Shown here piece by piece: positions 4,586 to 29,073 of a stretch of 53,215 nucleotides of DNA; positions within the stretch are counted from its first letter, which is position 1, and the number at the start of each line of letters is the position of its first letter. This DNA comes from Bacteroidia bacterium. Lineage in GTDB: Bacteria; Bacteroidota; Bacteroidia; Bacteroidales; GWF2-35-48. Position numbers and translations under genes: made by a program. The stretch lies in contig JACREX010000240.1 in assembly GCA_016212695.1 (NCBI GenBank), positions 1 through 53,215 on the forward strand, in the 5' to 3' direction. Below the pieces are notes generated by a model. The model had not been told where the DNA came from, did not search any database, and saw nothing but the letters and a program-made list of their open reading frames with translations.

Positions 4586-5071
4586 ATGAAAAAAATAACA
4601 ATAATCATCATCGGCTTATTAAGCTACCATGTTGCTTTTTGCCAGAGCCTGGCTCCTGAAGTAATATCTTCCTCAGGCAATTATTTTGAAAATGGTACTG
4701 TTTCGCTAAGTTGGACATTGGGCGAACCGGTTATCGAAACGGATTCTGCCGGCGGGCATATCCTTACGCAGGGGTTCCAGCAATCAAGATATGACATTGT
4801 TGTAGTTGAAAACATTGAAGAAAATCTGAATATATCCCTGTATCCGAATCCTACCTCTCAATTGCTGAATCTTGACTGGGAAATTCCCGGCAATGCAGCA
4901 GTTTTAATTGAATTGATAGATATGCAGGGGAAAAAACTGATTGACAAATCTTATATGGAAAACAAATCAAAAAAACAACTTAATTTATCTAATTATCCTG
5001 CAGCCGATTATTTTGTCAGAATTTCTTCCGGTAACAAACTTGTAAAAACATTCAAAGTTACAAAACATTAA
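4586..5071 (+). CDS. Small secreted protein with T9SS type A sorting domain
   Basis: The 161-residue protein has a signal peptide (about 1-19, ending FCQS) and a short middle section (about 20-75) with a VSLSWTLGEPV...GGHILTQGFQQ pattern often seen just ahead of T9SS tails. A C-terminal sorting domain (about 80-161) begins at LYPNPTSQ and ends FKVTK. Known: T9SS tails direct proteins across the outer membrane and are usually removed as the cargo is attached to the surface or released. The mature part would be only about 60 residues, so it is a linker or adaptor rather than an enzyme. Its stop is 12 nt before the giant collagen-like gene, so the two are co-transcribed; a role in surface display of the fibre is inferred. 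Confidence 0.82.
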   Translation: MKKITIIIIGLLSYHVAFCQSLAPEVISSSGNYFENGTVSLSWTLGEPVIETDSAGGHILTQGFQQSRYDIVVVENIEENLNISLYPNPTSQLLNLDWEIPGNAAVLIELIDMQGKKLIDKSYMENKSKKQLNLSNYPAADYFVRISSGNKLVKTFKVTKH

Positions 5072-5083
5072 ACTTAAAGTTTT

Positions 5084-8000
5084 ATGAAAAAAAATATTCT
5101 TGCCCTTGCTTTATTGCTGGGTGCAATGGTTGTGTCTTTTGCACAATCTCCGATGGCCTTCAAATACCAGGCTATAGCCCGCAGCAGCACGGGCGATGTA
5201 ATCGCAAACCAGGCGGTGAGTTTTAAAATAAGTATTCTCGAGGGTAGTTCAACGGGAACAGTCGTATATTCGGAAGAGCACGCAGCCACAACCAATATTT
5301 TTGGACTGGTTAATCTTACTATCGGTAACGGGAATAACCCGACAGGAAATTTCTCAACAATCAGTTGGGGCACATCATCCTATTACATAAAAATTGAAAT
5401 GGACCCGGCAGGAGGCATTGCTTATACAGAAATGGGTACGTCCCAGTTATTATCAGTACCCTATGCTTTGTATGCAGCCAGCGGGACACAGGGGCCGCAG
5501 GGGCCTGCCGGAAATGACGGATTGAACGGTCAGGATGGAGTAAGTATTACAACAACATTGATTCAAAACGATACCTTGTATATTACGCTCTCCAATGGTA
5601 ATACGCTCAATGCAGGCTATGTTGTGGGGCCGCAGGGTTTACAGGGATTGCAAGGCATACAGGGTGATCAGGGAGTACAGGGTAATACCGGACAGGACGG
5701 AGTGAGTATAAGTAATTCATATATACTCAACGACAGTTTATTTTTAGTTTTATCGAACAGTACTACGATTAATGCAGGTTATGTGAGAGGCGCACAGGGG
5801 CCGCAGGGATTACAGGGTACTGCCGGAAATGACGGACAAAATGGTGTCAATGGTATTTCCATTCTCTGGTTGGGAAATTTAGCCACAGCGCCATCAACAC
5901 CCTCCTTGAACAATGCTTATTACAACACAACCGATAAAAAATCATATATCTTTAATGGTACATCATGGGACATACTTGCACAAGACGGTGCTGATGGCAA
6001 CTCTGGCCCAATCGGTCCACAGGGACCAGCCGGCGCTGCAGGAACAGGTCTTACTAACCGCGGAGCATGGGTAACAGGTACAGATTATAATCCCAGTGAT
6101 TATGTCTTTGACCGTTCCACAAATGAGCCATTAGTCAACTCAATGTGGATATGCCAGGCTACTGCTACTTTTAATTCGACCATTCAGCCTTACTTAGACA
6201 ATACAAACTGGATAGAGTTCCAGGCGCCAGCCGGACAAAACGGTATTTCGCTCACCTGGCTCGGCACATTTGCAACTGCTCCGTCAAGCCCTCAATTGAA
6301 TTTTGCATATTATAATTCATCGGATAAAAAATCATATGTGTGGAATGGAGCAGCTTGGGATGTCATTGCACAGGATGGAGTTGACGGAGTACAGGGACCG
6401 CAGGGTATCCAGGGAGAACCAGGGCTTCAGGGTATTCAGGGAGATCAGGGGACTGCCGGGATAAATGGTGTTGATGGCATTTCTGTTTCATGGCTTGGTA
6501 CGTTGGCTACAGCACCCTCTAGTCCTGCATTAAATCAGGCATATTATAATTCCACAGATAAAAAATCTTACATTTATAATGGCGCTTCATGGGATATTCT
6601 CGCTCAGGACGGCACGAATGGTGTACAGGGACCGCAAGGTATTCCGGGCAATCAGGGACCTGCCGGAACGGATGGTTTATCTGTTTACTGGCTTGGGACT
6701 TTATCATCTGCTCCTGCTACTCCGAATATAAACTATGCCTATTATAATTCCACTGATAAAGTATCCTATATTTTTGACGGCGAAATCTGGCAGATTCTTG
6801 CACAAGATGGTATTCAGGGTCCTTCAGGACAAAATGGTGTTTCAATCTCCTGGCTTGGAGGATTTATTACTGCTCCGGCTACTCCTTCTTTAAACCAGGC
6901 GTATTATAACATTACTGATAAAAAATCATATGTTTTTGATGGCAACACATGGCAGGTTCTTGCTCAGGACGGAATTGACGGCGCTCAGGGACCGCAGGGC
7001 TTACAGGGTTTACAGGGAGATCAGGGTATTCAGGGCATTCCCGGTCTCAATGGCATCTCTGTCTCTTGGCTGGGTACTTATTCTTCTGCACCTTCCAGCC
7101 CGACACTGAATCAGGCGTACTATAATTCTACAGATAAAATATCATATATCTTTGATGGTAATACATGGCAGATTCTCACACAGGATGGTAATACAGGGCC
7201 GCAGGGTATTCAGGGGCCTATTGGAGTTACCGGAACAAATGGACAAGACGGTATATCAATAGCCTGGCTCGGTACTTATGCTTCTGATCCTCCTTCCCCT
7301 TCTTTAAACCAGGCGTATTATAATTCTACCGATAAAAAATCGTATATCTGGAATGGCTCGGCCTGGCAAGTAATCGCACAAGACGGCGCTCAGGGACCTC
7401 AGGGAATTCAGGGCATACAGGGGCTTACCGGAAACAATGGCATATCAATTTCATGGCTTGGCACATTGGCAACAGCGCCCTCAAGTCCCACATTAAATCA
7501 GGCATATTATAATTCCACTGATAAAAAATCTTACATTTATAATGGAAGTTCATGGCAGACACTTGCGCAGGACGGATTGACCGGATCTCAGGGGCCGCAG
7601 GGAATACAAGGCATACAAGGTATTCAGGGTATTCAGGGGCCTATAGGTATTTCAGTTTCATGGCTGGGTTCCTTTGCAACAGCTCCCTCAAGTCCTGCAT
7701 TAAATCAGGCATATTATAATACAACCGATAAAAAATCATATATTTACGATGGAACACAATGGCAGATAATTGCCCAGGATGGAGCCACCGGCGCTACAGG
7801 TTCTACGGGTGCGGCAGGAACAAACGGTATTTCCATTTCATGGTTAGGTACTTTTGCTTCTGCACCCGGCAGCCCTACACTGAATCAGGCTTACTATAAT
7901 TCAACGGATAAAAAATCATATATCTATGATGGCGGTTCATGGCAAACACTGGCACAAGATGGATCTAATGGTGCAAACGGCACAAACGGAAAAACTGTTT

Positions 8001-11000
8001 TGAGCGGCACATCCGATCCCTCGACTCAGGGAGTTGACGGAGATTTCTACGTAAACACTACTTCGCATTATATGTTTGGCCCAAAAACTGCCGGTTCATG
8101 GGGTACGGGTACTTCTCTCATCGGCCCGCAGGGTACTGCCGGAACAAACGGTATCAACGGACGAACCATTTTAAACGGAACTTCGAATCCCACAACACAG
8201 GGCAGCGAAGGAGACTTTTTTATCAACACTGCTTCCAATACTATATTTGGTCCTAAAACTTCCGGTTCATGGGGCACAGGAACTTCTATAGTCGGGCCGC
8301 AAGGGATACAGGGGCCGCAGGGTACTGCTGGCGATAAATATGCCACTACTTCCACTACTTCTCTGTTAATCGGTACAGGTACAAAAAATTTAACGGTTGC
8401 TGCAAACTTAGCCTATACTGCAGGACAAAATATTGTTATAGCATATGATGCTTCCAATAAAATGGAAGGTTCTGTAACTTCTTATACTGCAGGAACCGGC
8501 GCTATGGTAGCCGATATAACCACTATAACAGGAAGCGGTACATATACAAACTGGGGTGTAAACCTCAATGGAACTGCTGGTATTCAGGGTCCGCAAGGAC
8601 CACAGGGCACTGCCGGGACAAACGGAACCAATGGGAAAACCGTACTTAGCGGAACTGTAGATCCCACAATTGAAGGTGTTGATGGTGATTTTTATATTAA
8701 TACTACTTCCGATTATATTTTTGGCCCAAAAACTTCAGGCGCCTGGGGTTCCGGTGTTTCTCTTGTCGGGCCTGACGGCGCTGACGGCATAAATGGTAAA
8801 ACCGTATTGAATGGAACAGTTAACCCCACTACCGAAGGTATTAACGGAGACTTCTACATCAATACTGCTACAAATACAATTTTTGGCCCTAAAACGGGTG
8901 GTGCCTGGGGTTCCGGAACTTCTCTGGTTGGCCCTGCAGGAACTTATACTGCAGGAACAGGTATCAACATCGCAAGCAATACCATCACCAATACAGCACC
9001 AGACCAGACTGTCACTATGACTAATGGAACCGGAATAACTGTTACAGGTACTTATCCGAACTTCACTATTACCAATGCAAATCCCAATGCCACGCACACG
9101 GGTGATGTTACCGGTTCTGCAGCGCTGACAATTGCCGATAATGCAGTTACTACTTTAAAACTAAACGATGGCAGTGTTACATCAGCCAAATTAAATTCTA
9201 TGAGCGCAACGAACGGTCAGGTTTTAAAATACAACGGATCAAACTGGCTGCCTGCTGCTGATAATAACACAACCTATTCTGCAGGTACTGGTATCAATAT
9301 AGCCAGCAGTACCATCACCAATACTGCTCCTGACCAAACCGTGGCATTTACTAACGGTACTGGCATTTCTGTTACTGGCACTTATCCAAATTTTACTGTT
9401 ACCAATACTTCTCCTGATCAAACGGTTTCCCTTAATAACGGAACAGGGATATCCATAACCGGTTCTTATCCTAATTTTACTGTAAATTCCACACAAACGC
9501 TGGCACAAACACTGGCAAACGGTAATAGTGCCGGCTCCTATAATATTGATATGAATTCAAAATCAATCACGAATGCAAATATATTAGGCTTGGGTTATAA
9601 TGATGCTAATTATATTAATATGTATTATGGACATATTTATGATTATTCTGGCAGTCATGGTATAGATGGACAGGTTCTCACGGTTCATGGAACAAGTCCC
9701 AATACACATGTTACATGGGATACTCCGATTTCATATTCTGCAGGCACAGGGCTCTCGCTTTCCAGCAATACTTTCAGTGTAAATTTTGGCACAACAGCCA
9801 CTACGGTTGCCGCAGGTAATCATACACATTCTAATGATCATGCCCGTTCACATACTATGACGTCCACAAGCGATCATACGGCGGGTAACTGGAAGTTATT
9901 CTATTCCAACGCTACTGGCCAGATCACAGAATTAGGGTTCGGTACTTCAGGCCAGGTTCTTTCTTCAACAGGTGCGTCAACTGCGCCGTCATGGGTTACT
10001 CCCGCATCGGGAAGTGTAACCAGTGTGGCTTTATCTATGCCCTCTATTTTCTCGGTTTCAGGTTCTCCTGTTACTACTTCAGGTACCTTAACAGCCACCC
10101 TTGCTTCTCAAACCGCCAACTATGTTTTTGCAGCTCCCAACGGTTCTGCAGGAGCTCCAACATTCAGGGCTTTGGTTTCTGCCGATATTCCTGCTCATAA
10201 TAATGCATGGTCTACTATAACAAGCACTCCAACGACTATTTCAGGGTATGGAATAACAGATGCAGTTACCACAAGCAGGTCGCTTACCATCAGCGGAACT
10301 GCCAACCAGATTTCTCTCTCTACCGGATCACAAACTCTTGCCGCTGACAGAACCTGGACAGTGAGTTTGGCATCCAACGCTATTATGCCCGGGACGGCTT
10401 CTCTTACGCTGCCTATCGGTACTACAGCCCAGCAGCCGGTGACTCCTGTAAACGGAATGACCAGGTACAATTCCACAACCAATAAATTTGAATTTTATGA
10501 AAACGGCGCCTGGGTAAACTTTGTAAATAATAACAGCGGAATTACCGGAACAGGCCTTTCAAGTTATATTCCAAAATTCGATGCTACTTTATCTCTCGAT
10601 ACATCTCTCATGTATCAGAACGGGAAAAAGATTGGCGTAGGTACTACGAATCCTTCAGGACGGTTTATGATACAGCAGGATGCCAATGCCGCAGTTACGG
10701 AACCTATTTTTGAAATCAAAGATAAATCCGGTCAGAGCGTAATGATAGTTTATAAGGACAGCGTTCATTTCTGGGTAAAAGATGATGGCAGCAAAGCCCA
10801 AAACAGGGGTTCCTTTGCCGTAAGCGGAAAAAGCGATTCAAAATCAACAACCAACAGTTATTTTCATCTGAACACACAAAACCTCCTTTCAGGAAGAGAT
10901 GCAGGGAAAAAACTTTCTTCAGGAGTGAATTATTCTGGAAAAAATAATAATTTTTTGGGTTATGAAGCCGGGTATAATGATACGTCGGGTTATAAAAATA

Positions 11001-13648
11001 CCTTTATCGGGTTTAGGGCAGGCTATTCAAACACTTCTGGTTTCAGTAACATTTTTATTGGCGACAGCGCCGGGTATTCAAATACCACGGGTTATAAAAA
11101 TGTGGCCATTGGTAACCAGAGCGGAAAATCGCTCATCACCGGGAAATTCAATGTTTTTCTTGGGTTCCAGTCAGGGTACAGCACTACTTCAAATACTTAT
11201 AATTCATTTATCGGGTACCAGGCAGGATTTACCAATACAGGAAATGACAATACATTTTTTGGATATATGTCTGGCTATAATCACCAGGGAGGCGGAGGAA
11301 ATGTGTATATAGGAAGCAAGGCAGGGCAGCAGGATGTCAATGGTTCTCAAAACATTTTTATTGGCGAATATGCAGGTTATGCTAATTCTACCGGACAGAA
11401 GAATGTTTTTATCGGGACAGAAAGCGGAAGGAACAATAATACAGGTAGCCAGAATTATTTTATCGGTCAGAGAGCCGGTTTCAATAACAGCAATGGGAAC
11501 TATAATATTTTCATGGGCGACAGTACCGGTTTCAATAATTCATCGGGCTACCGGAATGTTTTTATCGGAGATCATTGCGGTTTCAGTAATACTACCGGAT
11601 ACCGGAATGTTTTCATTGGCAACGAAAGCGGATATTTAAATCAAGACGGATACTCCAATGTATTCATAGGATATATGGCGGGTCACGATAATACTACTGG
11701 TGATTTCAATGTTATTATGGGTCGCTCGGCAGGTTATGCAAATATTGATGGCAATTATAACAGTTTTATCGGATATTATTCCGGTATGCTCAATACTTCA
11801 GGTTCATCAAATGCATTCTTTGGCAGCAGCGCAGGGAGAAGCAATACTACCGGATCGTATAATGTTTACATCGGGTCCAATACAGGATATTATAACCAGA
11901 CAGGAGGCTACAACGTATTCTTAGGCAAAGATGCCGGGTATAACAATAATGCCAGCTATAACCTGTTTGTCGGATTTGAAGCCGGAAAGGCAAACACATC
12001 AGGGGCAAATAATTCTTTCCTCGGATATATGGCAGGAAAAAGTAATACCACCGGAAAAAGCAATATATTCATCGGTGATAGTTGCGGATATACAAATACC
12101 ACCGGCAGATTCAATGTATTTCTTGGGAAGGAAGCAGGTTTTACAAATAATGCTGATTACAATGCCTTTATTGGGTACAATGCAGGACGGGGTAATACTT
12201 CAGGAACTCAGAACACCTTTTTGGGTTATCTGGCGGGTTATACCAATTCAACCGGTACAAAAAATGTTGCCATTGGCGATAGCGCCGGGTACTCCGGTAC
12301 AACTGCTTCAAATAATGTTTTCATTGGAAGTAAAACCGGCGCAAAAATAAGCACCGGTAGCTTTAATGTATTTATAGGTGAAAAGGCAGGATCCAGTTCC
12401 ACAACATCTCTGGCCGGTGTTTTTATTGGCCAGAATGCGGGCTTATCAAATACTACTTCCTTGTTTAATGTTTTTGTCGGATATGGCACCGGACAATTGA
12501 ATACAACAGGAGGCCTGAATACTTATGTAGGAATGGCAGCAGGAAATGAAGCCACAGGTACAGGAAATTCATTTTTCGGAGGTGGAGCTGGAATGTCAAA
12601 CACAGGCGACGGTAGTACTTGTTTGGGTACTTATGCAGGACAAACTGGTTCTGGAAATAATAATACCTATATTGGCTATGAAGCAGGACAAAATTCAGGT
12701 GTTGGTGCAAGCAATGTTTTTATTGGTTATAATGCCGGAAAAGATGAAACAGGTTCAAACAAACTTTACATTGCAAATTCTAATACAGCAACCCCTATTA
12801 TTTATGGAGATTTTTCAGATTCTCAGGTAGGTCTCGGAACAACTTCCCCGAATTCAAGACTTCATATTAACGCAACTTCAGCAAGTGAAAACGGATTAAG
12901 AGTTCAAATTGCCGGAAACACCAAATTTTATGTTGATAACAATGGAGGTGTTTGTATTGGGACTAATACTACTCCCCCAACGAATGGGCTGTATGTTTCT
13001 GGTAGTATCGGCGTTACAAAAACTCCTGATACCGATGTTGATGTTAATGGAACCATTCGCGCTTGTGCTGCAAACTGGCCTACCACCGGCGCCGGAGTGG
13101 AAATTGCTTATTCAGGTGGCATCGGATATGTTCAATCGTACGACAGAACTAACTCTCTGTGGAAAAATTTAAAACTTGGCGGGAACGTTACTCCTGTATC
13201 CGATAATACTTTTACTTTAGGATCTTCTGCCTTAAGATGGACTGCTGTCTATGCAGTAAATGGAACCATTCAAACTTCAGACATTCGCCTTAAAGACAAT
13301 ATTAACAACATTAAATATGGAATTAATGATGTAATGAAATTAAGACCCGTTTCATTTAATTGGAAAAATGATGTGAATAAATCTACAAAACTTGGTTTAA
13401 TTGCTCAGGAATTGCAAAATGTGATAAAGGAGGCTGTTATTGTTGGCGATGATAGCGAAAAAACTCTGGGAGTTAATTATTCCGATCTTATTCCGGTATT
13501 AATTAAAGCTATTCAGGATCAACAGACGCTTATCCAGTCAATTCAGAAAGAAAATTATTCTTTAAAAGAAAAAGTGCAGGATTTTGATAAACTCAAAGCA
13601 GAAATCGAATATATTAAATCAGTAATCAGTACTTCTGCCAAGAAATAG
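5084..13648 (+). CDS. Giant collagen-like fibre protein A with S74 chaperone tail
   Basis: The 2854-residue protein is built in layers. A signal peptide (1-20) precedes the N-terminal domain shared by the family (about 21-135, FKYQAIARS...). GXY collagen-like runs such as GPQGPQGIQG then alternate with ten 45-residue ISxxWLG...YYNSTDKKSYI...AQDG modules (258-960). A CBM5/12-like insert (about 321-385) with W-x-x-GT-x-Y lies between the first two modules. Four 49-residue GKTVLSG...GDFYINT...IFGPKT modules (969-1286) follow, then TAGTGINIA-type and phage-tail-like linkers (GTSGQVLSSTG). The head has about 36 copies of a 17-residue NVFIGxxAGxxNTTG repeat (1955-2559). The C-terminal S74 endosialidase-type chaperone has its Ser-Lys pair at S2732/K2737 in SDIRLK and LGLIAQE, then a coiled coil. 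Known: S74 domains trimerise fibres and cut themselves off. A surface trimeric adhesin is the inferred role. No T9SS tail is present. Confidence 0.85.
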   Translation: MKKNILALALLLGAMVVSFAQSPMAFKYQAIARSSTGDVIANQAVSFKISILEGSSTGTVVYSEEHAATTNIFGLVNLTIGNGNNPTGNFSTISWGTSSYYIKIEMDPAGGIAYTEMGTSQLLSVPYALYAASGTQGPQGPAGNDGLNGQDGVSITTTLIQNDTLYITLSNGNTLNAGYVVGPQGLQGLQGIQGDQGVQGNTGQDGVSISNSYILNDSLFLVLSNSTTINAGYVRGAQGPQGLQGTAGNDGQNGVNGISILWLGNLATAPSTPSLNNAYYNTTDKKSYIFNGTSWDILAQDGADGNSGPIGPQGPAGAAGTGLTNRGAWVTGTDYNPSDYVFDRSTNEPLVNSMWICQATATFNSTIQPYLDNTNWIEFQAPAGQNGISLTWLGTFATAPSSPQLNFAYYNSSDKKSYVWNGAAWDVIAQDGVDGVQGPQGIQGEPGLQGIQGDQGTAGINGVDGISVSWLGTLATAPSSPALNQAYYNSTDKKSYIYNGASWDILAQDGTNGVQGPQGIPGNQGPAGTDGLSVYWLGTLSSAPATPNINYAYYNSTDKVSYIFDGEIWQILAQDGIQGPSGQNGVSISWLGGFITAPATPSLNQAYYNITDKKSYVFDGNTWQVLAQDGIDGAQGPQGLQGLQGDQGIQGIPGLNGISVSWLGTYSSAPSSPTLNQAYYNSTDKISYIFDGNTWQILTQDGNTGPQGIQGPIGVTGTNGQDGISIAWLGTYASDPPSPSLNQAYYNSTDKKSYIWNGSAWQVIAQDGAQGPQGIQGIQGLTGNNGISISWLGTLATAPSSPTLNQAYYNSTDKKSYIYNGSSWQTLAQDGLTGSQGPQGIQGIQGIQGIQGPIGISVSWLGSFATAPSSPALNQAYYNTTDKKSYIYDGTQWQIIAQDGATGATGSTGAAGTNGISISWLGTFASAPGSPTLNQAYYNSTDKKSYIYDGGSWQTLAQDGSNGANGTNGKTVLSGTSDPSTQGVDGDFYVNTTSHYMFGPKTAGSWGTGTSLIGPQGTAGTNGINGRTILNGTSNPTTQGSEGDFFINTASNTIFGPKTSGSWGTGTSIVGPQGIQGPQGTAGDKYATTSTTSLLIGTGTKNLTVAANLAYTAGQNIVIAYDASNKMEGSVTSYTAGTGAMVADITTITGSGTYTNWGVNLNGTAGIQGPQGPQGTAGTNGTNGKTVLSGTVDPTIEGVDGDFYINTTSDYIFGPKTSGAWGSGVSLVGPDGADGINGKTVLNGTVNPTTEGINGDFYINTATNTIFGPKTGGAWGSGTSLVGPAGTYTAGTGINIASNTITNTAPDQTVTMTNGTGITVTGTYPNFTITNANPNATHTGDVTGSAALTIADNAVTTLKLNDGSVTSAKLNSMSATNGQVLKYNGSNWLPAADNNTTYSAGTGINIASSTITNTAPDQTVAFTNGTGISVTGTYPNFTVTNTSPDQTVSLNNGTGISITGSYPNFTVNSTQTLAQTLANGNSAGSYNIDMNSKSITNANILGLGYNDANYINMYYGHIYDYSGSHGIDGQVLTVHGTSPNTHVTWDTPISYSAGTGLSLSSNTFSVNFGTTATTVAAGNHTHSNDHARSHTMTSTSDHTAGNWKLFYSNATGQITELGFGTSGQVLSSTGASTAPSWVTPASGSVTSVALSMPSIFSVSGSPVTTSGTLTATLASQTANYVFAAPNGSAGAPTFRALVSADIPAHNNAWSTITSTPTTISGYGITDAVTTSRSLTISGTANQISLSTGSQTLAADRTWTVSLASNAIMPGTASLTLPIGTTAQQPVTPVNGMTRYNSTTNKFEFYENGAWVNFVNNNSGITGTGLSSYIPKFDATLSLDTSLMYQNGKKIGVGTTNPSGRFMIQQDANAAVTEPIFEIKDKSGQSVMIVYKDSVHFWVKDDGSKAQNRGSFAVSGKSDSKSTTNSYFHLNTQNLLSGRDAGKKLSSGVNYSGKNNNFLGYEAGYNDTSGYKNTFIGFRAGYSNTSGFSNIFIGDSAGYSNTTGYKNVAIGNQSGKSLITGKFNVFLGFQSGYSTTSNTYNSFIGYQAGFTNTGNDNTFFGYMSGYNHQGGGGNVYIGSKAGQQDVNGSQNIFIGEYAGYANSTGQKNVFIGTESGRNNNTGSQNYFIGQRAGFNNSNGNYNIFMGDSTGFNNSSGYRNVFIGDHCGFSNTTGYRNVFIGNESGYLNQDGYSNVFIGYMAGHDNTTGDFNVIMGRSAGYANIDGNYNSFIGYYSGMLNTSGSSNAFFGSSAGRSNTTGSYNVYIGSNTGYYNQTGGYNVFLGKDAGYNNNASYNLFVGFEAGKANTSGANNSFLGYMAGKSNTTGKSNIFIGDSCGYTNTTGRFNVFLGKEAGFTNNADYNAFIGYNAGRGNTSGTQNTFLGYLAGYTNSTGTKNVAIGDSAGYSGTTASNNVFIGSKTGAKISTGSFNVFIGEKAGSSSTTSLAGVFIGQNAGLSNTTSLFNVFVGYGTGQLNTTGGLNTYVGMAAGNEATGTGNSFFGGGAGMSNTGDGSTCLGTYAGQTGSGNNNTYIGYEAGQNSGVGASNVFIGYNAGKDETGSNKLYIANSNTATPIIYGDFSDSQVGLGTTSPNSRLHINATSASENGLRVQIAGNTKFYVDNNGGVCIGTNTTPPTNGLYVSGSIGVTKTPDTDVDVNGTIRACAANWPTTGAGVEIAYSGGIGYVQSYDRTNSLWKNLKLGGNVTPVSDNTFTLGSSALRWTAVYAVNGTIQTSDIRLKDNINNIKYGINDVMKLRPVSFNWKNDVNKSTKLGLIAQELQNVIKEAVIVGDDSEKTLGVNYSDLIPVLIKAIQDQQTLIQSIQKENYSLKEKVQDFDKLKAEIEYIKSVISTSAKK
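5855..7963 (+). repeat. Ten WLG modules separated by collagen-like linkers
   Basis: Ten 45-codon modules, each starting I-S-x-x-W-L-G and ending A-Q-D-G, are separated by GXY linkers of varying length. Residues Y-Y-N-x-T/S-D-K-x-S-Y and W are nearly invariant. Codon choice differs between copies, so the protein sequence is better conserved than the DNA. Paralogue D carries two more copies. Confidence 0.85.
10946..12760 (+). repeat. 17-residue (51-bp) head repeats of fibre A
   Basis: About 36 consecutive in-frame copies of N-[VTI]-F-[IL]-G-x-x-[AS]-G-[YF]-x-N-x-x-G-x-x. A few copies have 15 or 16 residues. The Gly/Asn spacing suggests a beta-roll or beta-helix like the YadA head, but with a 17- rather than 14-residue rung. 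Confidence 0.85.
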
Positions 13649-13676
13649 TCTTTGTGTTTTTTTGATCATATCCAAT

Positions 13677-13714
13677 GGGGGTTTTATGTTAGAATAAAAC
13701 CCCTTTTCTTTTTT
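13677..13714 (+). terminator. Rho-independent terminator after fibre gene A
   Basis: A 10-bp stem GGGGTTTTAT (13678-13687) / ATAAAACCCC (13694-13703) with a 6-nt loop is followed by a T-rich tract to 13714. It ends the 4586-13648 operon. Confidence 0.8.
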
Positions 13715-20000: not shown

Positions 20001-22566
20001 CGGGTTAACGAATACTGACGGCTCTGATAATATTTTTATCGGACCGTACGCCGGAAAAAACAATACAACTGCCGGCAACAATGTTTTCATCGGTATTCAA
20101 AGCGGGTTCTCAAATCAAATCGGACATTCCAATGTTTTCCTTGGTAATATGGTCGGTTATAGTAATACCGAAGGATATAAGAATGTGTTTATCGGCGATA
20201 GGTGCGGTTACAGCAACACAACAGGGCTTCAGAATATTTTTATCGGCGACTGGTCTGGAGTATATAATACAATAGGAAATCAAAATTTATTTATCGGCGC
20301 TTCGGCAGGTATGAATAACATTACAGGCGCTAATAATATTTTCATGGGCGACCAGGCCGGTTATACAAATACCACAGGTTATGCCAATGTGATGATTGGA
20401 AATGAAGTAGGGTACGGCAATGAAACCGGTTATTCCAATGTATTTATCGGCAACAAATCGGGCCGCACCAACCAGAATGGTATTCAGAACGTATTTATCG
20501 GCGATAGCGCTGGGATATCAAATTCATCAGGCACACAGAATATTTTCATAGGCGCTCTTGCCGGGCGCTACAATACCTCTGCCGGAGATAATGTGTTCAT
20601 CGGATCAGAAGCAGGGGCCATGAATGTTAACGGACAGGCAAATGTTTTCCTCGGTAACCAGGTAGGAAAAAATAATATTACAGGATATAAAAATGTATTT
20701 GAAGGAAACCGTTCCGGATTCAGCAATTCAAGCGGATACCAGAATATTTTCATAGGCGATGAATCGGGTTTCACAAATACTGACGGTTATCAAAACGTAT
20801 TCATCGGTATTATGGCCGGAAAAATGAATACAACAGGTACTGATAATATCTTCCTGGGCAACCAGAGCGGATTCACAAATTCTACAGGAGTATATAACAT
20901 TTTCATGGGTTCAAGCGCCGGTTATAACAATACACTGGGAAACAGTAATATTTATATGGGATACCAGGCCGGTATTACAAACCAGACCGGTTCGCACAAT
21001 GTCTTTCTCGGCACGGAAGCGGGGAAAAACACGAACAGTACATTTGGCATTACCGGTTGCTATAATGTCTTTCTCGGACGCGGCGCAGGATATACAAACA
21101 CGCAGGGATATTCAAACAGCTTTATTGGCAACCTGTCCGGATATGGAAACACTACCGGTTATTCAAATACCTTCATCGGCGATGAAAGCGGATATTATAA
21201 TACTACAGGTACCAATAATGTTTACATCGGGCGAAGAAGCGGGTATTGTGAAGGAACAGGCGGCACAGGGGGAGACAATATCTTCCTCGGAAATGAAAGC
21301 GGTTATAAGAATACCACCGGCTATAATAATCATTTTTTCGGTTTGAATTCCGGCCATGATAATACCATCGGGCATGATAATGTTTTTCTCGGAAAAAGCA
21401 CAGGGATGACCAATACAACAGGCGCCAATAACATATTTATCGGTACGGTTAGTGGCGCTCACAATACTGACGGTATTAATAATGTTTGCATTGGTGAAAG
21501 CGCCGGTTATGAAAACGGCGCCAGTTCGCACAATACTTTTGTGGGGCATCACAGCGGAGAAAAGAATACAGGAAACGGGTGGAATTCGTTTTATGGCGCT
21601 TACAGCGGAAGCAGTAATACCACAGGCGAAGAAAATACCTATCTGGGACAAAGCGCTGGTTACTATAACCTGACCGGTTCAAACAATGTTTTCATTGGGA
21701 GCGAGGCTGGGAAAAACGCTACGGGAAGCGGCAATCTTTTCATAGGTTACGGAGCCGGTTACAGCCAGGCAGGAGATGATAAATTATTCATCGGAAATAA
21801 CTGGAACGGAGGCACGCCACTGATCGGCGGTGATTTCAATGCATGGAGGGTAGGTATCTACAGAATGCCCACCACCCACACCTTTGAAGTGGAGGGAACC
21901 ATCTGGGCAAATGGGGCAGGATCAACCGGAAACATCCTGAACCTTTTCGGGCCGATCAGCTCTTATGGTTACGGCGCCCGCATAACCTTCGGCGATGCAA
22001 ACAATGCATATATTGAAGAAGACCTTGATGATTATCTTACTATAAATGCCAATAACCGTATTGCGCTTATGGGCGGTAACGTTGGAATAGGAACTCTTAC
22101 TCCCTCTCAAAAACTTTCCGTATCCGGAAATATCTGCTATACCGGATCCATCGGCGCATGCTCCGATATCCGGTATAAAAAGAATGTTGCTCCTCTTGAA
22201 AACTCTTTGTCAAAATTACTGCAGATTCAGGGTGTGAACTATTTCTGGAAGACCGAAGAATTTCCTGAAAAAGACTTTTTGAATACTAAGCAAATCGGGT
22301 TCATTGCGCAGGAAATCGAAAAAATTTATCCTGAAGTGGTGATTACAGACAACACCGGGTTTAAATCAGTTGATTATTCCCGCCTCACCCCGATTTTAGT
22401 GGAAGCAATCAAAGAACAGCAAAAATTAATTGATAAAATTGTAAACGAAAATTCCATCCTGAAATCTGATAACGCGGAGTTAAAATTAAAAACTCAGGAA
22501 ATAGATAAATTAAAAACTGAGATTGAAAAGATCAATTCTATTTTAAATCCTTCTGCCAAAAAATAA
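17023..22566 (+). CDS. Giant fibre protein C, repeat head and S74 tail
   Basis: From the ATG at 17023 the protein is 1847 residues. The frame is open further upstream only through a TTG that overlaps the promoter, and MKKIVFLSIVALL is the proper signal peptide. Parts in order: signal peptide, shared N-terminal domain (about 22-140), a short GXY region, one GYSVLSG...FGPKT module, linkers, then the KAQNRGSFAVSGKS block. The head holds about 61 copies of the 17-residue repeat (544-1586), making it the most head-heavy paralogue. The S74 chaperone has S1714/K1719 in SDIRYK and IGFIAQEIEKIYPEVV, then a long coiled coil ending NPSAKK. Collagen-like content is much lower than in A, so the mature fibre may be mostly beta-roll. 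Secretion by signal peptide is seen; the route over the outer membrane is unknown because no T9SS tail exists. Confidence 0.85.
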   Translation: MKKIVFLSIVALLINISLLQAQAPHAFKYQAIARNNTGDVIANQAVSFKISILEGSSTGTVVYSEEHAATTNIFGLVNLTIGNGNNPTGNFSTISWGISSFYIKIEMDPAGGIAYTEMGTSQLLSVPYALYAASGIQGPQGPAGNDGLNGQDGVSITSTVIQNDTLYIMLSNGNTLNAGYVVGPQGLQGLQGIQGLQGNPGTNGYSVLSGTSDPTGGTGVNGDFYINTTTNIIFGPKTGGTWGSGTSLVGPAGTYTAGTGINLAGGVITNTAPDQTVSLSNGSGISITGTYPSFTVAANFGTTAGTTAQGNHTHANMITGTGTSNKITFWNGTSTVTSNNLLTWDNSTNRLGVGTATPLAALDVLGNIRIDDGGTLAAGKVLTSDINGIASWQNVPAGLTSNGTANYIPKFISDSTFGNSLIYQNGTKLGVGTTTPAGRVQIVADASAPDNEPLFEILDKGGKTVMAVYNDSIHFWVKDDPSKAQNRGSFAVSGKSSSKSTTNNLLLVNADSTRIYTNDPDAGFGVEDVGGGTATRYMRLTPSNYFIGHEAGIHVTGGVFNSFLGYQSGYTDQGGSYNTFLGYKSGYSNDIGSHNSFFGFQSGYSNTSGASNVFVGKDAGYSNNAGSSNVFIGEEAGYSNAMGKQNVFMGDSAGYFNMSGEQNIYIGYAAGKSCTLSGDNVFVGSEAGKNNTSGSANVFLGNQVGLKNINGWSNLFLGNRSGYNNVDGFLNIFMGDSAGFYNQSGTQNTFIGVAAGRSSTTSYDNVFIGSQAGYLNTTGYSNVMIGNEVGLKNISGSWNIILGNRSGYSNTEGNQNIFIGNQSAYLNTTGSMNIFMGSFAGYGNATGSDNIFMGVQTGYWNSTGYANVMIGVASGYYNTTGYSNVFLGNRVGNNNGTGFQNVFIGDSAGLSNQTGAQNIFIGALAGKNNSFAGDNVFIGTEAGAFNVTGSSNVFLGNQVGKNNIYGTKNVYIGNRSGFSNTNGNQNIFIGDETGLTNTDGSDNIFIGPYAGKNNTTAGNNVFIGIQSGFSNQIGHSNVFLGNMVGYSNTEGYKNVFIGDRCGYSNTTGLQNIFIGDWSGVYNTIGNQNLFIGASAGMNNITGANNIFMGDQAGYTNTTGYANVMIGNEVGYGNETGYSNVFIGNKSGRTNQNGIQNVFIGDSAGISNSSGTQNIFIGALAGRYNTSAGDNVFIGSEAGAMNVNGQANVFLGNQVGKNNITGYKNVFEGNRSGFSNSSGYQNIFIGDESGFTNTDGYQNVFIGIMAGKMNTTGTDNIFLGNQSGFTNSTGVYNIFMGSSAGYNNTLGNSNIYMGYQAGITNQTGSHNVFLGTEAGKNTNSTFGITGCYNVFLGRGAGYTNTQGYSNSFIGNLSGYGNTTGYSNTFIGDESGYYNTTGTNNVYIGRRSGYCEGTGGTGGDNIFLGNESGYKNTTGYNNHFFGLNSGHDNTIGHDNVFLGKSTGMTNTTGANNIFIGTVSGAHNTDGINNVCIGESAGYENGASSHNTFVGHHSGEKNTGNGWNSFYGAYSGSSNTTGEENTYLGQSAGYYNLTGSNNVFIGSEAGKNATGSGNLFIGYGAGYSQAGDDKLFIGNNWNGGTPLIGGDFNAWRVGIYRMPTTHTFEVEGTIWANGAGSTGNILNLFGPISSYGYGARITFGDANNAYIEEDLDDYLTINANNRIALMGGNVGIGTLTPSQKLSVSGNICYTGSIGACSDIRYKKNVAPLENSLSKLLQIQGVNYFWKTEEFPEKDFLNTKQIGFIAQEIEKIYPEVVITDNTGFKSVDYSRLTPILVEAIKEQQKLIDKIVNENSILKSDNAELKLKTQEIDKLKTEIEKINSILNPSAKK
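18652..21780 (+). repeat. About 61 copies of the 17-residue head repeat, with a higher-order unit
   Basis: Continuous 51-bp in-frame repeats. On top of the basic unit, a block of about 15 repeats (255 residues, 765 bp) is duplicated: the copy starting at 19723 (NVFIGDSAGLSN) matches the one at 20488 (NVFIGDSAGISN), and rungs before and after stay in register (ALAG, EAGA, NQVGKNN, NRSGFSN). Two copies carry insertions (near 21030 and 21240). Confidence 0.8.
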
Positions 22567-22665: not shown

Positions 22666-25600
22666 ATGAAAAAACTATATGTTTTTATTTGGTTTGTCTT
22701 AGCAGGTTTATATACTTATGCACAGGCGCCCTATGCCTTCAAATACCAGGCAGTAGCCCGCAATGTCGGCGGTAATGTTTTGCAAAATCAGAATGTAAGT
22801 TTCCGTATTTCCCTGCTTCAGGGCAGTTCAACAGGAGCAGCCGTGTATTCCGAGGAACATGCTGCTACCACCAATGCCTTTGGGTTGGTGAACCTGGAGA
22901 TTGGTAATGGTAGTAATGTGACAGGTATTATTGACAGCATCCACTGGGCAAATGGACCCTATTTCATAAAGATAGAAATGGACGCCACAGGCGGTAACAC
23001 CTTTTCTGAAATGGGTGTTACTCAATTATTATCGGTACCCTATGCTTTGTATGCGGCCAGCGGCAACCAGGGACCACAAGGGCCACAGGGATCAGCCGGC
23101 AGCGACGGGATCAACGGGCAGGATGGTGTTGGTATAACAAGCACATTAGTTCAAAACGATAGTTTATATATTACGCTCTCCAATGGAACTACGCTCAATG
23201 CAGGCTATGTAGTGGGGCCGCAGGGATTACAGGGTACACAGGGCGACCAGGGAATACAGGGATTGCCCGGCGCTGACGGAGTCAGTGTTACTAACTCTTA
23301 TATTCTTAATGACAGTCTTTATATTCTTCTATCAAACAACCAAACCATCAATGCGGGTTATGTGAGAGGACTTCAGGGAGAACAGGGAATACAGGGTGTG
23401 GCCGGACAAGATGGAGCAAACGGCATTAATGGTATTTCTATCTCTTGGCTCGGTAATCTTGCCGCTGCTCCTGCTTCGCCTGCTCTCAACAATGTTTATT
23501 ACAATACTACCGATAAAAAAGCATATATTTTCAATGGCTCTTCCTGGGACATTCTTGCACAGGATGGTGTTGACGGTAACACCGGTCCCATGGGGCCACA
23601 GGGCGCTGCCGGAACCGGCCTCACCAATCGCGGTGCTTGGGTTACAGGTACTGATTATAATCCCAGCGACTATGTATTCGACCGTTCCACTGGTGATTCA
23701 CTGGTTAACTCTATGTGGATTTGCCAGGCTGCTGCTACTTTTAATTCGATCTTTCAGCCATACTTAGACAATACGAACTGGGTGGAGTTTCAGGCTCCGG
23801 CAGGGCAGAACGGTGTTTCTCTCACTTGGCTTGGAACTTTTGCAACAGCACCATCAAGCCCACAGTTAAATTATGCATATTACAATTCAGCAGATAAAAA
23901 ATCTTATGTATGGAACGGAGTAGCATGGGAAGTAATATCACTGGACGGAGTTGACGGAGTTACTGGTCTTCAGGGTATTCAGGGGGAACCGGGTTTACAG
24001 GGAATACAGGGAAATGCCGGACAGGATGGTATTGGAATTACCAGTTCCTATATTGCCAATGACAGTTTGTTCCTTGTTTATAGCAACAGTACAATTGTAA
24101 ACGCAGGTCATGTCAGAGGCGCACAGGGGCCACTGGGAATTCAAGGAGACCAGGGCATACAGGGAGAGCAAGGTATTCCGGGTATTCAGGGAAATACCGG
24201 TGATAATGGCATCGGCATCACAAATACATATGTTTCCAATGACAGTTTATTTATTATATTCAGCAGCGGAAGCGCCATCAATGCGGGACATGTAAGAGGG
24301 CAGCAGGGTCCTCAGGGAATAGCCGGAGCAAATGGCACAAATGGAGCAGATGGAACCAATGGCACAAACGGCATTAATGGAACAGATGGAAAAACCATTT
24401 TATCCGGAACAATATATCCCACATCCGAGGGACTGGATGGAGATTTTTATATCAATACAACGACTAACCAGATTTTTGGTCCAAAGACAGAGGGAGCATG
24501 GGGAGCGGGAACATCATTAATCGGCCCGCAAGGCACACAGGGATCGCAGGGAATTCAGGGAGAACAAGGCTTGCAGGGAATTCAGGGAACCCCCGGAACC
24601 AATGGAGTTGACGGAACCAATGGCACGAATGGTTATTCTGTATTAAGTGGTGCAAGCGATCCAACTGCCGGCACAGGTGTTGATGGTGATTTCTATATCA
24701 ACACTACATCAAACACTATTTTTGGCCCTAAGACAGGCGGTACATGGGGAACGGGAACTTCTTTAGTCGGGCCTGCAGGAACCTATACTCCAGGGACTGG
24801 AATTTCAATAGCATCTAATACCATTTCATTATCCTCACCTGTATCCATTGCAAATGGCGGCACAAACGCTTCATCATATACCGCTAATCAGTTTTTATTG
24901 TACAATGGAACGGCATTTACGGCCAGCGGATACAGTAACACCAGTTTTGCCAATGCCACGCATTCTCATACTACGCTTACCAGAGGTTCAGGCCTCACAG
25001 GCAGCAATTATGATGGTTCAACAGCGACAACATGGGCGATAGATTTCGGAACAGGCGCCACACAGGTTGCAACAGGTAATCACACTCACACGCAGCTTCA
25101 CAATCAATCACACGCAATAACATCTACAAGCGACCACACAGCAGGCAACTGGAAACTATTTTACTCCAATGGAAGCGGACAAGTAACAGAACTAAGCTTT
25201 GGCACTTCAGGACAAGTGCTTTCATCAACAGGAGCATCATCAACGCCCTCATGGACGACGCCAACCTTAGGAACTGTAACGAGTGTAGGACTTTCTATGC
25301 CTTCTGTTTTTTCGGTTTCAGGCTCACCTGTAACATCCTCAGGCACTCTGACTGCGTCATTCAATTCACAAACTGCAAATTATGTTTTTGCAGCGCCGAA
25401 TGGCAGCGCCGGTACACCAACATTCAGAGCATTAGTAGCTGCTGATTTACCATCTCATAGCCATAGTTCCTTAACTCCCGGAACGGGATTAACGGGAACA
25501 GCATATAGTGGTTCCGCAGCAGTTTCAGACTGGGCTGTCAGTTTCGCTGGAAGCGGCTCGGTAAACTCAGCGGCGCACAGCGACCATACCCATACAAGCA

Positions 25601-28600
25601 TGGTTACAGGCAGCGGAACAGCTACGCAGGTGGCCTTCTGGAGCAATGCCTCAGCGCTTACAAGCAGTTCCAATCTTTATTGGGATAATACAAATTTCCG
25701 CCTTGGCATTGGTACCTCAAGCCCTACTGCTACCTTATCGGTTCAGGGAAATTCAATATTTAATTTCGGAAGGTCGGGAGGAGCAAACCATGTTACAATA
25801 CGCGGATATCATACTGGAATAAACTATGGAGTGCTTGCTTTCCAGGCATACAATGACGCAACTGATATTAATATTGCTGAAATTGCAGGTTTGATTACCG
25901 GCCATACTTCTGGTTCTGAATCCGGAGGTTTATTATTCAGTACAAAGCCGGCAAGCGGCGCAACATCAGAACGTATGCGTATTAATGAAAATGGCAATGT
26001 TGGTATCGGAACAACGACTCCAAATACAGGTCTTCATATAGCAAAAAATGCGACTTGGGGTGCGCCAGTCTGGATTGATGCTACAGGTGTAACAGGAGGA
26101 AGGCTATGGGTAATTCAGTCTACAGGTGGCGACCATAGTGCTGGTCAGGGTAAATTCATATTCAGAGATGAAATTGCCTCTATCAATGTAATGACTTTAC
26201 TCTCAAGTGGCAATGTCGGTATTGGAACAACAAATCCATCAGCAACGCTTACAGTGAATGGGAGCATGCTTTTAACAGGCGCCACGCGCAGCATTTCAAA
26301 AGATGCCAATCAAAGGCTTGATATTTTTAACGTAGGTGGACTCAATTCAACCGGCCCGTTTTGGATTGGTTATCACTTTTCTCCTCCCGATGCCCTCACC
26401 CTTGCAGGCTCAAATGTTTACCCTCGTACGTCAATATATTGGAATTACAACACCGTTGCGAATCCTACTGATGCGACGTTCAATTATTATCTCGGCAACA
26501 CAGGCGGCCTCACAGCAAGTCTCGCCTTTGGGACAGAAAGCGCCGGCAACATAGATTTCCTAACCGCAGGTACAAACAGGGTACGTATTACAGGCACTGG
26601 CAATGTTGGGATTGGTACAACAAATCCAACGACCACGTTACATTTGGAAGGTTCGTTCAGATATTCTGACGATTCAGAAGCGCCCGGAAAGGTTTTGACT
26701 TCTATTGATGCTAACGGAAATGCCACATGGGCTTCTCCGGCTATTGGCTCTGCCAGCGGAACCGCTAATTATGTTGCTAAATTCACCAGCGCTACTGCTC
26801 TTGGAAACAGCCAGATTTTCGACAATGGAACCAATGTTGGGATTGGCGCTACAAATCCGTTTCATGGAAAACTTGCTGTTGTTTCGACTAACGGCGCTGC
26901 AGCCGGACCAAATGCACAGATTAATGCTATAGCAGGAAGCACTGCCCAGGGACAGCGTGCTGTGATTTCTTTCTGGCCTACATTTGAAGGTACAGGCGAT
27001 AACGGAGCACGTCGCGCTGCTGATATTGTTGCAGGGTTCAGTGGAGGGGCATGGTGTAATCAGTATCTTGCATTTCACACAGGCGACTGCGGCGCTAATG
27101 ATGCAGCTAATCTTACATATGAGAGGATGCGAATCAATGGTAATGGTTATGTTGGAATAGGCACTGCCAACCCCACCGGTAAAGTACAGATAGCAGCAGG
27201 TTCATCACTTCCTGCCAATGTACCCATTTTTGAAATTAAAGATCAGAATAATCATGATGTTATGGTTGTGTATAAAGACAGTATTCATTTCTATGTTCAG
27301 GATCCATTCGGTGGAGCTAAAGGACAGAACAGGGGATGTTTTGCCGTAAGTGGTAAAAGCGATACCAAGGCGGTTACAAGTAATTATTTTTACCTAAATC
27401 CTGCAAATAATTTTATAGGACAGGATGCAGGGAAAAGCCTTTCGGGCGCTTTAAATTATAGCGGGAAATACAATACATTTATAGGCTATCAGGCAGGATA
27501 TACAGACACATCAGGGTATAAAAATTATTTTATTGGTTACAAATCTGGATATACAAATAAAAGTGGTTATAGCAATATCTTCATTGGCGATAGTGTGGGT
27601 TTTTCAAACACTTCAGGACACAGCAACGTCTTTATGGGAAATAAAAGCGGTAGTTCTAATACCATAGGTTGGCGCAATGTTTTTATGGGTTATCAAAGTG
27701 GTATTTCAAATATTAATGGTATGAATAATGTTTTTATTGGTACTGAGGCTGGTTACAGTAATACCTATGGCCTTTCTAACACCTTTATCGGTAATATGGC
27801 CGGCCATAACCATCAAGATGGTCAGCAAAATGTTTATATTGGACAAAATGCCGCTTATTCTGATGTTTCAGGATTAAAAAATGTTATTATTGGTAGTTCT
27901 GCTGCAACTTCTAAAGCGAGTGGCGACAATAATGTGGTATTAGGATATCGCGCAGGAAACAATCTTAATGGAAGCGGAAATGTTTTTATTGGTTACTATG
28001 CCGGTTATAATGAAACCGGTTCAAATAAATTGTATATCGCAAATACATCTACTGATCCCCCATTAATTTATGGCGATTTTTCCAATGGAAGAATCGGACT
28101 TGGAACAACCAGCCCGGACCTCAAATTAAGAATCTGGACGAATGATGGCGACGGCATAGGAATTACAGGTGGTGGAGCCAATACTTTAATGTTATTTGAA
28201 GACAACGGGTTTGCCCGTGTAAAATATGATGGAAACAATTTGAGAATCGGTACGAATGCTGATAATAATCTGCTCACTTTGAATTCCACATATGTAGGTA
28301 TCGGCACTACAAGCGCATCATTCCCTCTTGACGTAGCTACATCGGCGAATTCCACACAGTCTTACGGCTGGCTCAACAGCGCCGGAAACATTGGCACTTC
28401 TTCAGGCACAAATGCATATTCCATCCGCGCTGCAGCCAGAATTCTTGCCACCGAGTTCAATGCCAACTCCGATGCAAGAATTAAAAATATCACCGGATAT
28501 TCTGATACAAAAAATGATCTTGACTTAATCAATAAAATAAAGGTTACCAATTATACCTACATTGACAAAGTAAACAACGGGAATCAGATAAAAGAGGGAT

Positions 28601-29073
28601 TCATCGCACAACAGGTTGAGCAAATAATTCCCGAAGCAGTTAAATACAGCAGCAATTTCATTCCTGATATTTATGAATTAACTACAGTTATTTCTTTTGA
28701 GAAAGAAAAGCAAATACTCACTGTGGGTCTTAGTAAACCGCATCAGTTGGCAGTTAATGATACGGTTCGGATTTATTTAGAAAATGCTGTAAAGGAGGCT
28801 GTAGTTTCCGAAGTGATTTCAGATAAAAAATTTGTTCTGAAGAATTGGAACAGCGACACAGAAAAAATATTTGTATATGGTAAAAAAGTTTCCGATTTCA
28901 GGGCCGTGGATTACGATCGAATATTCACAACAGGTATTGGCGCCATACAGGAACTGAGCAAAGAGGTTGAACTTTTAAAAGTTAAAAATACATCTCTTGA
29001 AAAAGAAAATACCTTGTTCAAAGCAGAGATTGAAAAGATCAATTCTATATTAGGTACTTCAGCCAAGAAGTAG
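22666..29073 (+). CDS. Giant fibre protein D with S74 tail
   Basis: The ATG at 22666 gives 2135 residues. An upstream TTG in the same frame at 22585 lies within the promoter and before the terminator, so it is rejected. A signal peptide (MKKLYVFIWFVLAGLYTYAQ) is followed by a more diverged form of the N-terminal domain (FKYQAVARNVGGNVLQNQ). Then come GXY runs, two WLG modules around a CBM5/12-like insert (NRGAWVTGTDYNPSDYV), two GKTILSG-type modules, and phage-tail-like linkers shared with A (GTSGQVLSSTGAS). Several short GIGTTNPxxTL 'variable head' motifs, the KGQNRGCFAVSGKS block and about 12-13 17-residue repeats (1581-1787) follow. The S74 domain has S1935/K1940 in SDARIK and EGFIAQQVEQIIPEAV, with an extra stretch of about 70 residues before the coiled coil, ending GTSAKK. 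Confidence 0.85.
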   Translation: MKKLYVFIWFVLAGLYTYAQAPYAFKYQAVARNVGGNVLQNQNVSFRISLLQGSSTGAAVYSEEHAATTNAFGLVNLEIGNGSNVTGIIDSIHWANGPYFIKIEMDATGGNTFSEMGVTQLLSVPYALYAASGNQGPQGPQGSAGSDGINGQDGVGITSTLVQNDSLYITLSNGTTLNAGYVVGPQGLQGTQGDQGIQGLPGADGVSVTNSYILNDSLYILLSNNQTINAGYVRGLQGEQGIQGVAGQDGANGINGISISWLGNLAAAPASPALNNVYYNTTDKKAYIFNGSSWDILAQDGVDGNTGPMGPQGAAGTGLTNRGAWVTGTDYNPSDYVFDRSTGDSLVNSMWICQAAATFNSIFQPYLDNTNWVEFQAPAGQNGVSLTWLGTFATAPSSPQLNYAYYNSADKKSYVWNGVAWEVISLDGVDGVTGLQGIQGEPGLQGIQGNAGQDGIGITSSYIANDSLFLVYSNSTIVNAGHVRGAQGPLGIQGDQGIQGEQGIPGIQGNTGDNGIGITNTYVSNDSLFIIFSSGSAINAGHVRGQQGPQGIAGANGTNGADGTNGTNGINGTDGKTILSGTIYPTSEGLDGDFYINTTTNQIFGPKTEGAWGAGTSLIGPQGTQGSQGIQGEQGLQGIQGTPGTNGVDGTNGTNGYSVLSGASDPTAGTGVDGDFYINTTSNTIFGPKTGGTWGTGTSLVGPAGTYTPGTGISIASNTISLSSPVSIANGGTNASSYTANQFLLYNGTAFTASGYSNTSFANATHSHTTLTRGSGLTGSNYDGSTATTWAIDFGTGATQVATGNHTHTQLHNQSHAITSTSDHTAGNWKLFYSNGSGQVTELSFGTSGQVLSSTGASSTPSWTTPTLGTVTSVGLSMPSVFSVSGSPVTSSGTLTASFNSQTANYVFAAPNGSAGTPTFRALVAADLPSHSHSSLTPGTGLTGTAYSGSAAVSDWAVSFAGSGSVNSAAHSDHTHTSMVTGSGTATQVAFWSNASALTSSSNLYWDNTNFRLGIGTSSPTATLSVQGNSIFNFGRSGGANHVTIRGYHTGINYGVLAFQAYNDATDINIAEIAGLITGHTSGSESGGLLFSTKPASGATSERMRINENGNVGIGTTTPNTGLHIAKNATWGAPVWIDATGVTGGRLWVIQSTGGDHSAGQGKFIFRDEIASINVMTLLSSGNVGIGTTNPSATLTVNGSMLLTGATRSISKDANQRLDIFNVGGLNSTGPFWIGYHFSPPDALTLAGSNVYPRTSIYWNYNTVANPTDATFNYYLGNTGGLTASLAFGTESAGNIDFLTAGTNRVRITGTGNVGIGTTNPTTTLHLEGSFRYSDDSEAPGKVLTSIDANGNATWASPAIGSASGTANYVAKFTSATALGNSQIFDNGTNVGIGATNPFHGKLAVVSTNGAAAGPNAQINAIAGSTAQGQRAVISFWPTFEGTGDNGARRAADIVAGFSGGAWCNQYLAFHTGDCGANDAANLTYERMRINGNGYVGIGTANPTGKVQIAAGSSLPANVPIFEIKDQNNHDVMVVYKDSIHFYVQDPFGGAKGQNRGCFAVSGKSDTKAVTSNYFYLNPANNFIGQDAGKSLSGALNYSGKYNTFIGYQAGYTDTSGYKNYFIGYKSGYTNKSGYSNIFIGDSVGFSNTSGHSNVFMGNKSGSSNTIGWRNVFMGYQSGISNINGMNNVFIGTEAGYSNTYGLSNTFIGNMAGHNHQDGQQNVYIGQNAAYSDVSGLKNVIIGSSAATSKASGDNNVVLGYRAGNNLNGSGNVFIGYYAGYNETGSNKLYIANTSTDPPLIYGDFSNGRIGLGTTSPDLKLRIWTNDGDGIGITGGGANTLMLFEDNGFARVKYDGNNLRIGTNADNNLLTLNSTYVGIGTTSASFPLDVATSANSTQSYGWLNSAGNIGTSSGTNAYSIRAAARILATEFNANSDARIKNITGYSDTKNDLDLINKIKVTNYTYIDKVNNGNQIKEGFIAQQVEQIIPEAVKYSSNFIPDIYELTTVISFEKEKQILTVGLSKPHQLAVNDTVRIYLENAVKEAVVSEVISDKKFVLKNWNSDTEKIFVYGKKVSDFRAVDYDRIFTTGIGAIQELSKEVELLKVKNTSLEKENTLFKAEIEKINSILGTSAKK
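27406..28026 (+). repeat. 17-residue head repeats in fibre D
   Basis: About 12-13 in-frame copies of the N-x-F-I-G-x-x-x-G-x-x-N-x-x-G unit, followed by NKLYIANTSTDPPLIYGDF, which matches the exit from the head in paralogue A. Confidence 0.8.

Follow-up and report, generated by a model that had tools for sequence, protein, structure and literature searches.

MAT-like fibre genes of a Bacteroidota genome and their link to a small gene bearing a T9SS signal

The window analysed here, a stretch of 53,215 nucleotides (contig C169 of a Bacteroidota genome of 4.0 Mb in 259 contigs), contains four fibre genes in tandem at 5084-29073, all on the same strand and encoding proteins of 1,027-2,854 residues. 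The fibres are a variant of the known mosaic adhesive trimer (MAT) type of Bdellovibrio bacteriovorus; the new part is their link to a small partner gene that encodes the type IX secretion system (T9SS) signal missing from the fibres. This link is undescribed as far as the open literature was searched, no description of the partner/fibre pair being found there. It is very probable that the fibres are cell-encoded and exported, with S74-assisted assembly, and almost as probable, on the combined analysis, that they would serve as surface adhesins. The complete reading, in which MAT-like mosaic trimeric surface fibres receive a T9SS signal in trans from the partner, we regard as evenly balanced.

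The initial annotation had described four tandem fibre paralogues starting at 4586. The four-gene locus was confirmed as real and far above chance, each gene encoding a signal peptide, an N-terminal domain (NTD) and a C-terminal S74 region, which in fibre 2 is divergent. However, the first 486 bases (4586-5071) belong to no fibre and encode a T9SS type A protein of 161 residues, the partner. The partner gene heads an operon-like row and ends 12 bp before fibre 1. For fibres 3 and 4, the ATG codons that begin MKKIVF and MKKLYV are more fitting start sites than the TTG codons of the ORF list. The features are as follows.

4586..5071, + strand: partner (P0001), 161 aa; signal peptide, conserved segment of ~47 aa, T9SS type A sorting domain
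5084..13648, + strand: fibre 1, 2,854 aa
5144..5479, + strand: fibre 1 NTD, MAT-type; NF053851 6.1e-8 (mature domain alone); AlphaFold2 beta-sandwich
5483..8803, + strand: fibre 1 collagen-like stretches; 17 runs, 121 triplets, alternating with ten WLGT...AYYNTTDKKSYI... modules; PF01391 3.8e-23
10946..12763, + strand: fibre 1 beta-roll, 17-residue repeats
13277..13438, + strand: fibre 1 S74 chaperone/protease (PF13884); predicted cleavage at Ser2732 in SDIRLK; 4UW8 E 3.5e-4
13783..16866, + strand: fibre 2, 1,027 aa; YadA-head repeats
13846..14181, + strand: fibre 2 NTD, from NTD homology search
16492..16737, + strand: fibre 2 divergent S74-like end; SSREFK; profile-profile 65%, E 6e-5; 82% identity to C249 fibre tip
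~17023..22566 (ORF from 16978), + strand: fibre 3, ~1,847 aa; very long beta-roll and S74
17086..17421, + strand: fibre 3 NTD, from NTD homology search
18652..21735, + strand: fibre 3 beta-roll, 17-residue repeats
22162..22341, + strand: fibre 3 S74, SDIRYK
~22666..29073 (ORF from 22585), + strand: fibre 4, ~2,135 aa; collagen, tail-fibre-like modules, beta-roll and S74
22723..23058, + strand: fibre 4 NTD, from NTD homology search
28468..28644, + strand: fibre 4 S74, SDARIK
29103..29200, + strand: decayed S74 fragment after fibre 4, GFIAQEVVSVIPEVV..., with stops and frameshift; PF13884 2.1e-4, TGA inside

The neighbours of the locus encode a caspase-domain protein, a SpoIIE-type phosphatase, an M1 peptidase, a large PKD/GEVED protein, a class II tRNA synthetase, RecQ and ABC transporters. 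T9SS tails are present on the M1 peptidase and the PKD/GEVED protein. The caspase-like (C14) gene lies shortly ahead of the locus (1697-3091). Shortly upstream of the fibre row, at 3252-4505, is a gene for a cyclic-nucleotide-binding protein with a SpoIIE phosphatase, whose C-terminal part resembles the biofilm regulator SiaA (NF038263 1.6e-48, far under the cut-off). This phosphatase is a possible regulator of the fibre row.

Every fibre chain starts with a hydrophobic signal peptide ending in ..AQ, called by inspection, followed by an NTD of ~112 residues. The NTDs of the four window fibres share 66-95% pairwise identity. The domain plan was initially thought to be shared by all four; this holds for the NTD, but collagen, YadA-head and beta-roll content differs by fibre. 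G-x-y collagen triplets number 121, 23, 15 and 75 in fibres 1, 2, 3 and 4, respectively, and PF01391 (collagen) matched fibre 4 (3.8e-21) as well as fibre 1. Fibre 2 has YadA-head repeats (Pfam 5.9e-22), and a 17-residue beta-roll periodicity was found in fibres 1, 3 and 4. Tail-fibre-like modules are also part of the shafts. Few tandem repeats were detected at the DNA level, indicating that the protein repeats have diverged. A module GLTNRGAWVTGTDYNPSDYVFDRST..MWICQA....W in fibre 1 (window ~6053-6238) and the corresponding stretch of fibre 4 presumably resemble a chitin-binding CBM5/12-type fold.

An S74 domain had been assigned to all four fibres. Pfam recognised it in fibres 1, 3 and 4 (1.6e-13, 7.9e-16 and 4.4e-11, respectively), each with an SDxxxK cleavage motif. 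The tip of fibre 2 alone gave weak coiled-coil-type Pfam matches and no S74. In a profile alignment built on few sequences (hhalign probability 65%, E 6e-5), the C-terminus of fibre 2 aligns lengthwise with the other S74 ends; the Ser...Lys pair is retained there as SSREFK. By these sequence comparisons, the fibre 2 end is likely, not certainly, a divergent S74. Two related proteins of the same genome, on contigs C41 (L012:1711-5916) and C38 (L013:241-3486), have no MAT NTD; each contains two internal S74 domains followed by a T9SS-type tail (C41 PF18962 2.5e-4, under the cut-off). This order of S74 before a secretion tail on one chain is unusual if S74 self-cleaves.

Of 18,950 NCBIfam models, the NTDs of this genome matched a single one, Bdello_MAT_N (NF053851), whose name and description point to the Bdellovibrio MATs (PMC10769870). 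This model matched all ten NTDs of the genome with the signal peptide removed (four window fibres and six other genes; best 3e-11), and it matched 84 of 85 complete Bacteroidota NTD proteins (best 3.7e-14). Because the best score in this genome, 39.9 bits, is below the curated cut-off of 60 bits, we class the NTDs as a homologous Bacteroidota branch and not as members of the Bdellovibrio subfamily. Their homology to the Bdellovibrio MAT NTD, overlooked by the initial annotation, is nearly certain from sequence. No Pfam model covers the NTD. AlphaFold2 predicted a beta-sandwich for the fibre 1 NTD (pLDDT 90.5), with low confidence confined to the last ~ten residues. The LLSVPYAL motif at this end is among the most conserved parts of the domain, and the low model confidence there may mean that the end needs a trimer or partner. 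Compared with PDB and BFVD, the model gave no match below E 1e-3, only generic beta-sandwiches with TM ~0.5. The MAT NTD has also been described as lacking a structural homologue (PMC10769870). That study reported 21 Bdellovibrio MAT proteins with a signal peptide and a beta-rich domain of ~130 residues, 13 of which end in S74 with SDxxxK. It demonstrated cleavage of Bd3182, including a cleavage-dead mutant, imaged fibres by electron microscopy (Bd2133) and localised MAT members on the predator surface. The MAT NTD was expected to bind a surface receptor, whose identity that paper left open.

A search for the NTD across Bacteroidota, as the initial annotation had proposed, found it in 57 of 296 sampled genomes and 34 of 140 genera; MAT-type fibres are thus common in this phylum. 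The named loci with an NTD number 75 and come from Bacteroidales, Flavobacteriales, Saprospiraceae and other groups. S74 co-occurs in 41 of the 57 NTD genomes (expected 17). Among the ends and domains of 85 complete NTD proteins, S74 was found in 21, FISUMP (Fib_succ_major) in 10, Lcl_C in 5 and Collar in 1, the others being unnamed. Further fibre clusters of the same genome are on C249, C64, C32 and C15. The NTD had been proposed as the constant end of the fibres, which the analysis supports. Across ten genes of this genome, NTD identity does not track S74-tip identity (r -0.10). Fibres 1 and 3, for instance, are 95% identical in the NTD but 33% in the tip, whereas fibre 2 and a C249 fibre are at 64% and 82%, respectively. 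Together with the broken S74 remnant behind fibre 4, these uncorrelated identities form a pattern of tip exchange. The remnant is possibly a leftover of such an exchange or of a fifth fibre.

No T9SS tail was found on the four fibres, in agreement with the initial annotation, or on any of the 85 complete NTD proteins. The route across the outer membrane had been called open; a candidate had been overlooked in the locus's own first gene, which is T9SS-tagged and repeatedly linked to NTD genes. The tail of the window partner matched PF18962 (7.6e-13) and TIGR04183 (1.6e-11), and its segment of ~47 residues reads SLSWTLGEPV..ETD....LTQGFQQ. Partner homologues have ~165 residues with the same three parts, and TIGR04183 matched 36 of 36 tested. 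The partner directly adjoins the NTD gene in 30 of 70 testable independent named loci, whereas of 493 control genes from these loci just one has a partner beside it (Fisher 3e-29); 27 of these partners are upstream, mostly within 30 bp, and 3 are downstream. ORFs of 120-230 aa lying immediately ahead of NTD genes were gathered without a homology filter; of these 56, 51 were by eye of one kind, with a signal peptide, an SLSWTLGE....LTQGFQQ-like segment and a type A tail. A profile of the segment alone identified 60 places in 42 of the 296 genomes. Forty-eight are linked to an NTD gene (37 within 1 kb upstream, 11 more within 3.5 kb), and 39 of the 42 genomes have the NTD (expected 8, p 3e-31). 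Since this profile was trained partly on partner-NTD pairs, the count was repeated in genomes outside the training set, where 31 of 39 places, in 27 genomes, were NTD-linked. No other neighbour family exceeds 11 of 76 NTD loci. A functional link between partner and fibre is likely.

Two partner-NTD arrangements elsewhere were noted. On plasmid pAUEa of Aureispira anguillae (12260-14650, L122), partner and NTD protein occur as a pair; Aureispira is a genus with predatory members. In the same genome as the window, three genes stand in a row on C229 (L127:647-4204): one for a T9SS partner, one for a small protein predicted to form an outer-membrane beta-barrel (PF13505 3.5e-5) and one for an NTD protein whose tip is Collar-like. 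The barrel is a further candidate NTD receptor.

Forty of the 70 loci have no adjoining partner, nor do the C249, C64, C32 and C15 clusters, so one partner serves many fibres or is dispensable. No ORF fusing the NTD to the partner segment was found. We modelled partner and NTD with AlphaFold2 as one read-through chain, in which two stops were read as Gln purely as a linker. The model (pTM 0.47) left the partner segment unfolded (pLDDT ~30) and gave no confident contact. Speculatively, a segment that is conserved yet unfolded in the model would fit folding on binding. Co-variation was also considered as a sign of partner-NTD contact. The partial r was 0.51 for segment and NTD, but partner tail and NTD reached 0.45, so that common descent accounts for it. 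SprA is present in all 57 NTD genomes, including this one, but also in 136 of 140 genera, so its co-occurrence with the NTD says little.

We propose the following mechanism. Each fibre chain would be exported by Sec. The collagen and beta-roll stretches would drive trimerisation, with the C-terminal S74 chaperone assisting; judging from the motif and from Bd3182, S74 probably cleaves itself at the Ser of SDxxxK after the trimer has folded. The constant NTD would stay at the cell side, the variable repeats and tip would point outward as adhesin, and recombination would swap tips between fibre genes. The type A tail would carry the partner through the T9SS. The conserved N-terminal segment of the partner would bind the NTD, and the fibre would be carried out with the partner or held by it at the surface. 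This in-trans reading was drawn from the absence of T9SS tails on the fibres, their presence on every tested partner and the strong genetic linkage. T9SS substrates are thought to exit SprA tail-first on PorV (PMC10994853), and lipopolysaccharide linkage can anchor type A proteins (PMC9143113); a tail given in trans could thus both export and fix the fibre. We place T9SS delivery or anchoring of the fibres by the partner a little short of an even balance. In its more specific form, secretion or anchoring by proxy, the NTD of separately encoded fibres would be bound by a small T9SS-tagged protein, one signal thereby serving many untagged giants; this form is slightly less likely than not. The loci without a partner and the lack of a confident contact in the fold were counted against the in-trans reading. 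Also weighing against it, SprA would have to pass a very bulky cargo if trimerisation preceded export. Bdellovibrio is not known to have a T9SS, though its MATs are displayed, a further point against T9SS delivery in Bacteroidota.

Because the shaft and tip modules (S74, collagen and beta-roll) are like those of phage tail proteins, the fibres might be parts of a tailocin, an extracellular contractile injection system or a prophage. The S74 region is phage-related, as initially stated: it matched 801 phage records, each below 60% identity, and its sole match among solved structures was the T5 L-shaped tail fibre (4UW8, by fibre 1). However, the NTD matched none of 50,697 phage records and none of the viral contigs scanned; phages thus share the modules of shaft and tip, while the NTD is cellular. 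A signal peptide on each chain also argues against a virion part. Neither the window nor the surroundings of the other fibre clusters yielded a gene for a sheath, tube, baseplate, capsid or lysis protein. Pfam and PHROGs detected no phage structural or replication genes beside the fibres in the window, PHROGs matches outside the fibres being to helicase-, peptidase- and caspase-like families. These findings and the housekeeping neighbours uphold the initial view of a cellular locus without other phage genes, and a particle origin is extremely improbable.

Whether exported fibres stay on the cell is a separate issue. They could be released or periplasmic structural proteins, since no lipobox, cell-wall or outer-membrane anchor was seen in their sequences, the T9SS tail is absent, and no window fibre has a Pfam match to a C-terminal YadA anchor barrel. 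The homologous NTD on surface-displayed Bdellovibrio MATs (PMC10769870) and the T9SS partner linked to the locus speak against this, and we consider it improbable. A stronger competitor also has the fibres at the surface. In it, docking on an outer-membrane protein would need nothing beyond the NTD, export would bypass the T9SS, and the partner would have a separate role at a later stage, such as capping, processing or common regulation. The display of Bdellovibrio MATs, the receptor expected for their NTD (PMC10769870), the many loci without a partner and the C229 barrel all favour it, and the NTD itself is a plausible anchor. On the other hand, the partner is the sole widely recurrent neighbour across families and bears exactly the missing signal. 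Docking by the NTD alone is possible but somewhat doubtful.

MATs are the prey-gripping fibre superfamily of Bdellovibrio, and their reach now extends to a second phylum. What the conserved NTD attaches to is a question common to both systems, and in Bacteroidota the linked protein bearing the missing T9SS signal is a candidate answer. Through this link the anchoring question can now be tested by simple deletions. If the in-trans reading is true, T9SS cargo cannot be counted from C-terminal domains alone.

Compared with known systems, the fibres share with phage S74 fibres and spikes (T5 L-shaped fibre, K1F endosialidase) a C-terminal self-cleaving trimerisation chaperone, here predicted; phage N-termini, in contrast, dock on virions, and no MAT-type NTD was found in phages. 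Like type Vc adhesins (YadA), they have YadA-head-like beta-roll repeats and suggest a trimeric adhesin, but the window fibres lack the YadA anchor/translocator, end in S74 instead, and have their constant end at the N-terminus. As for T9SS type A substrates, the Por_Secre_tail is on the partner and on none of the 85 NTD proteins. The closest likeness is to the MATs, with a signal peptide, a homologous beta-rich NTD, a long fibre, S74 with SDxxxK in some members and other tips elsewhere, many paralogues per genome and no other phage genes. Unlike the MATs, which have about 1,000 residues, the window fibres reach 2,854; the Bacteroidota fibres have collagen and 17-residue beta-roll shafts with FISUMP and Lcl_C tips, their NTDs score below the 60-bit cut-off of the model, and a T9SS-tagged gene is linked to them.
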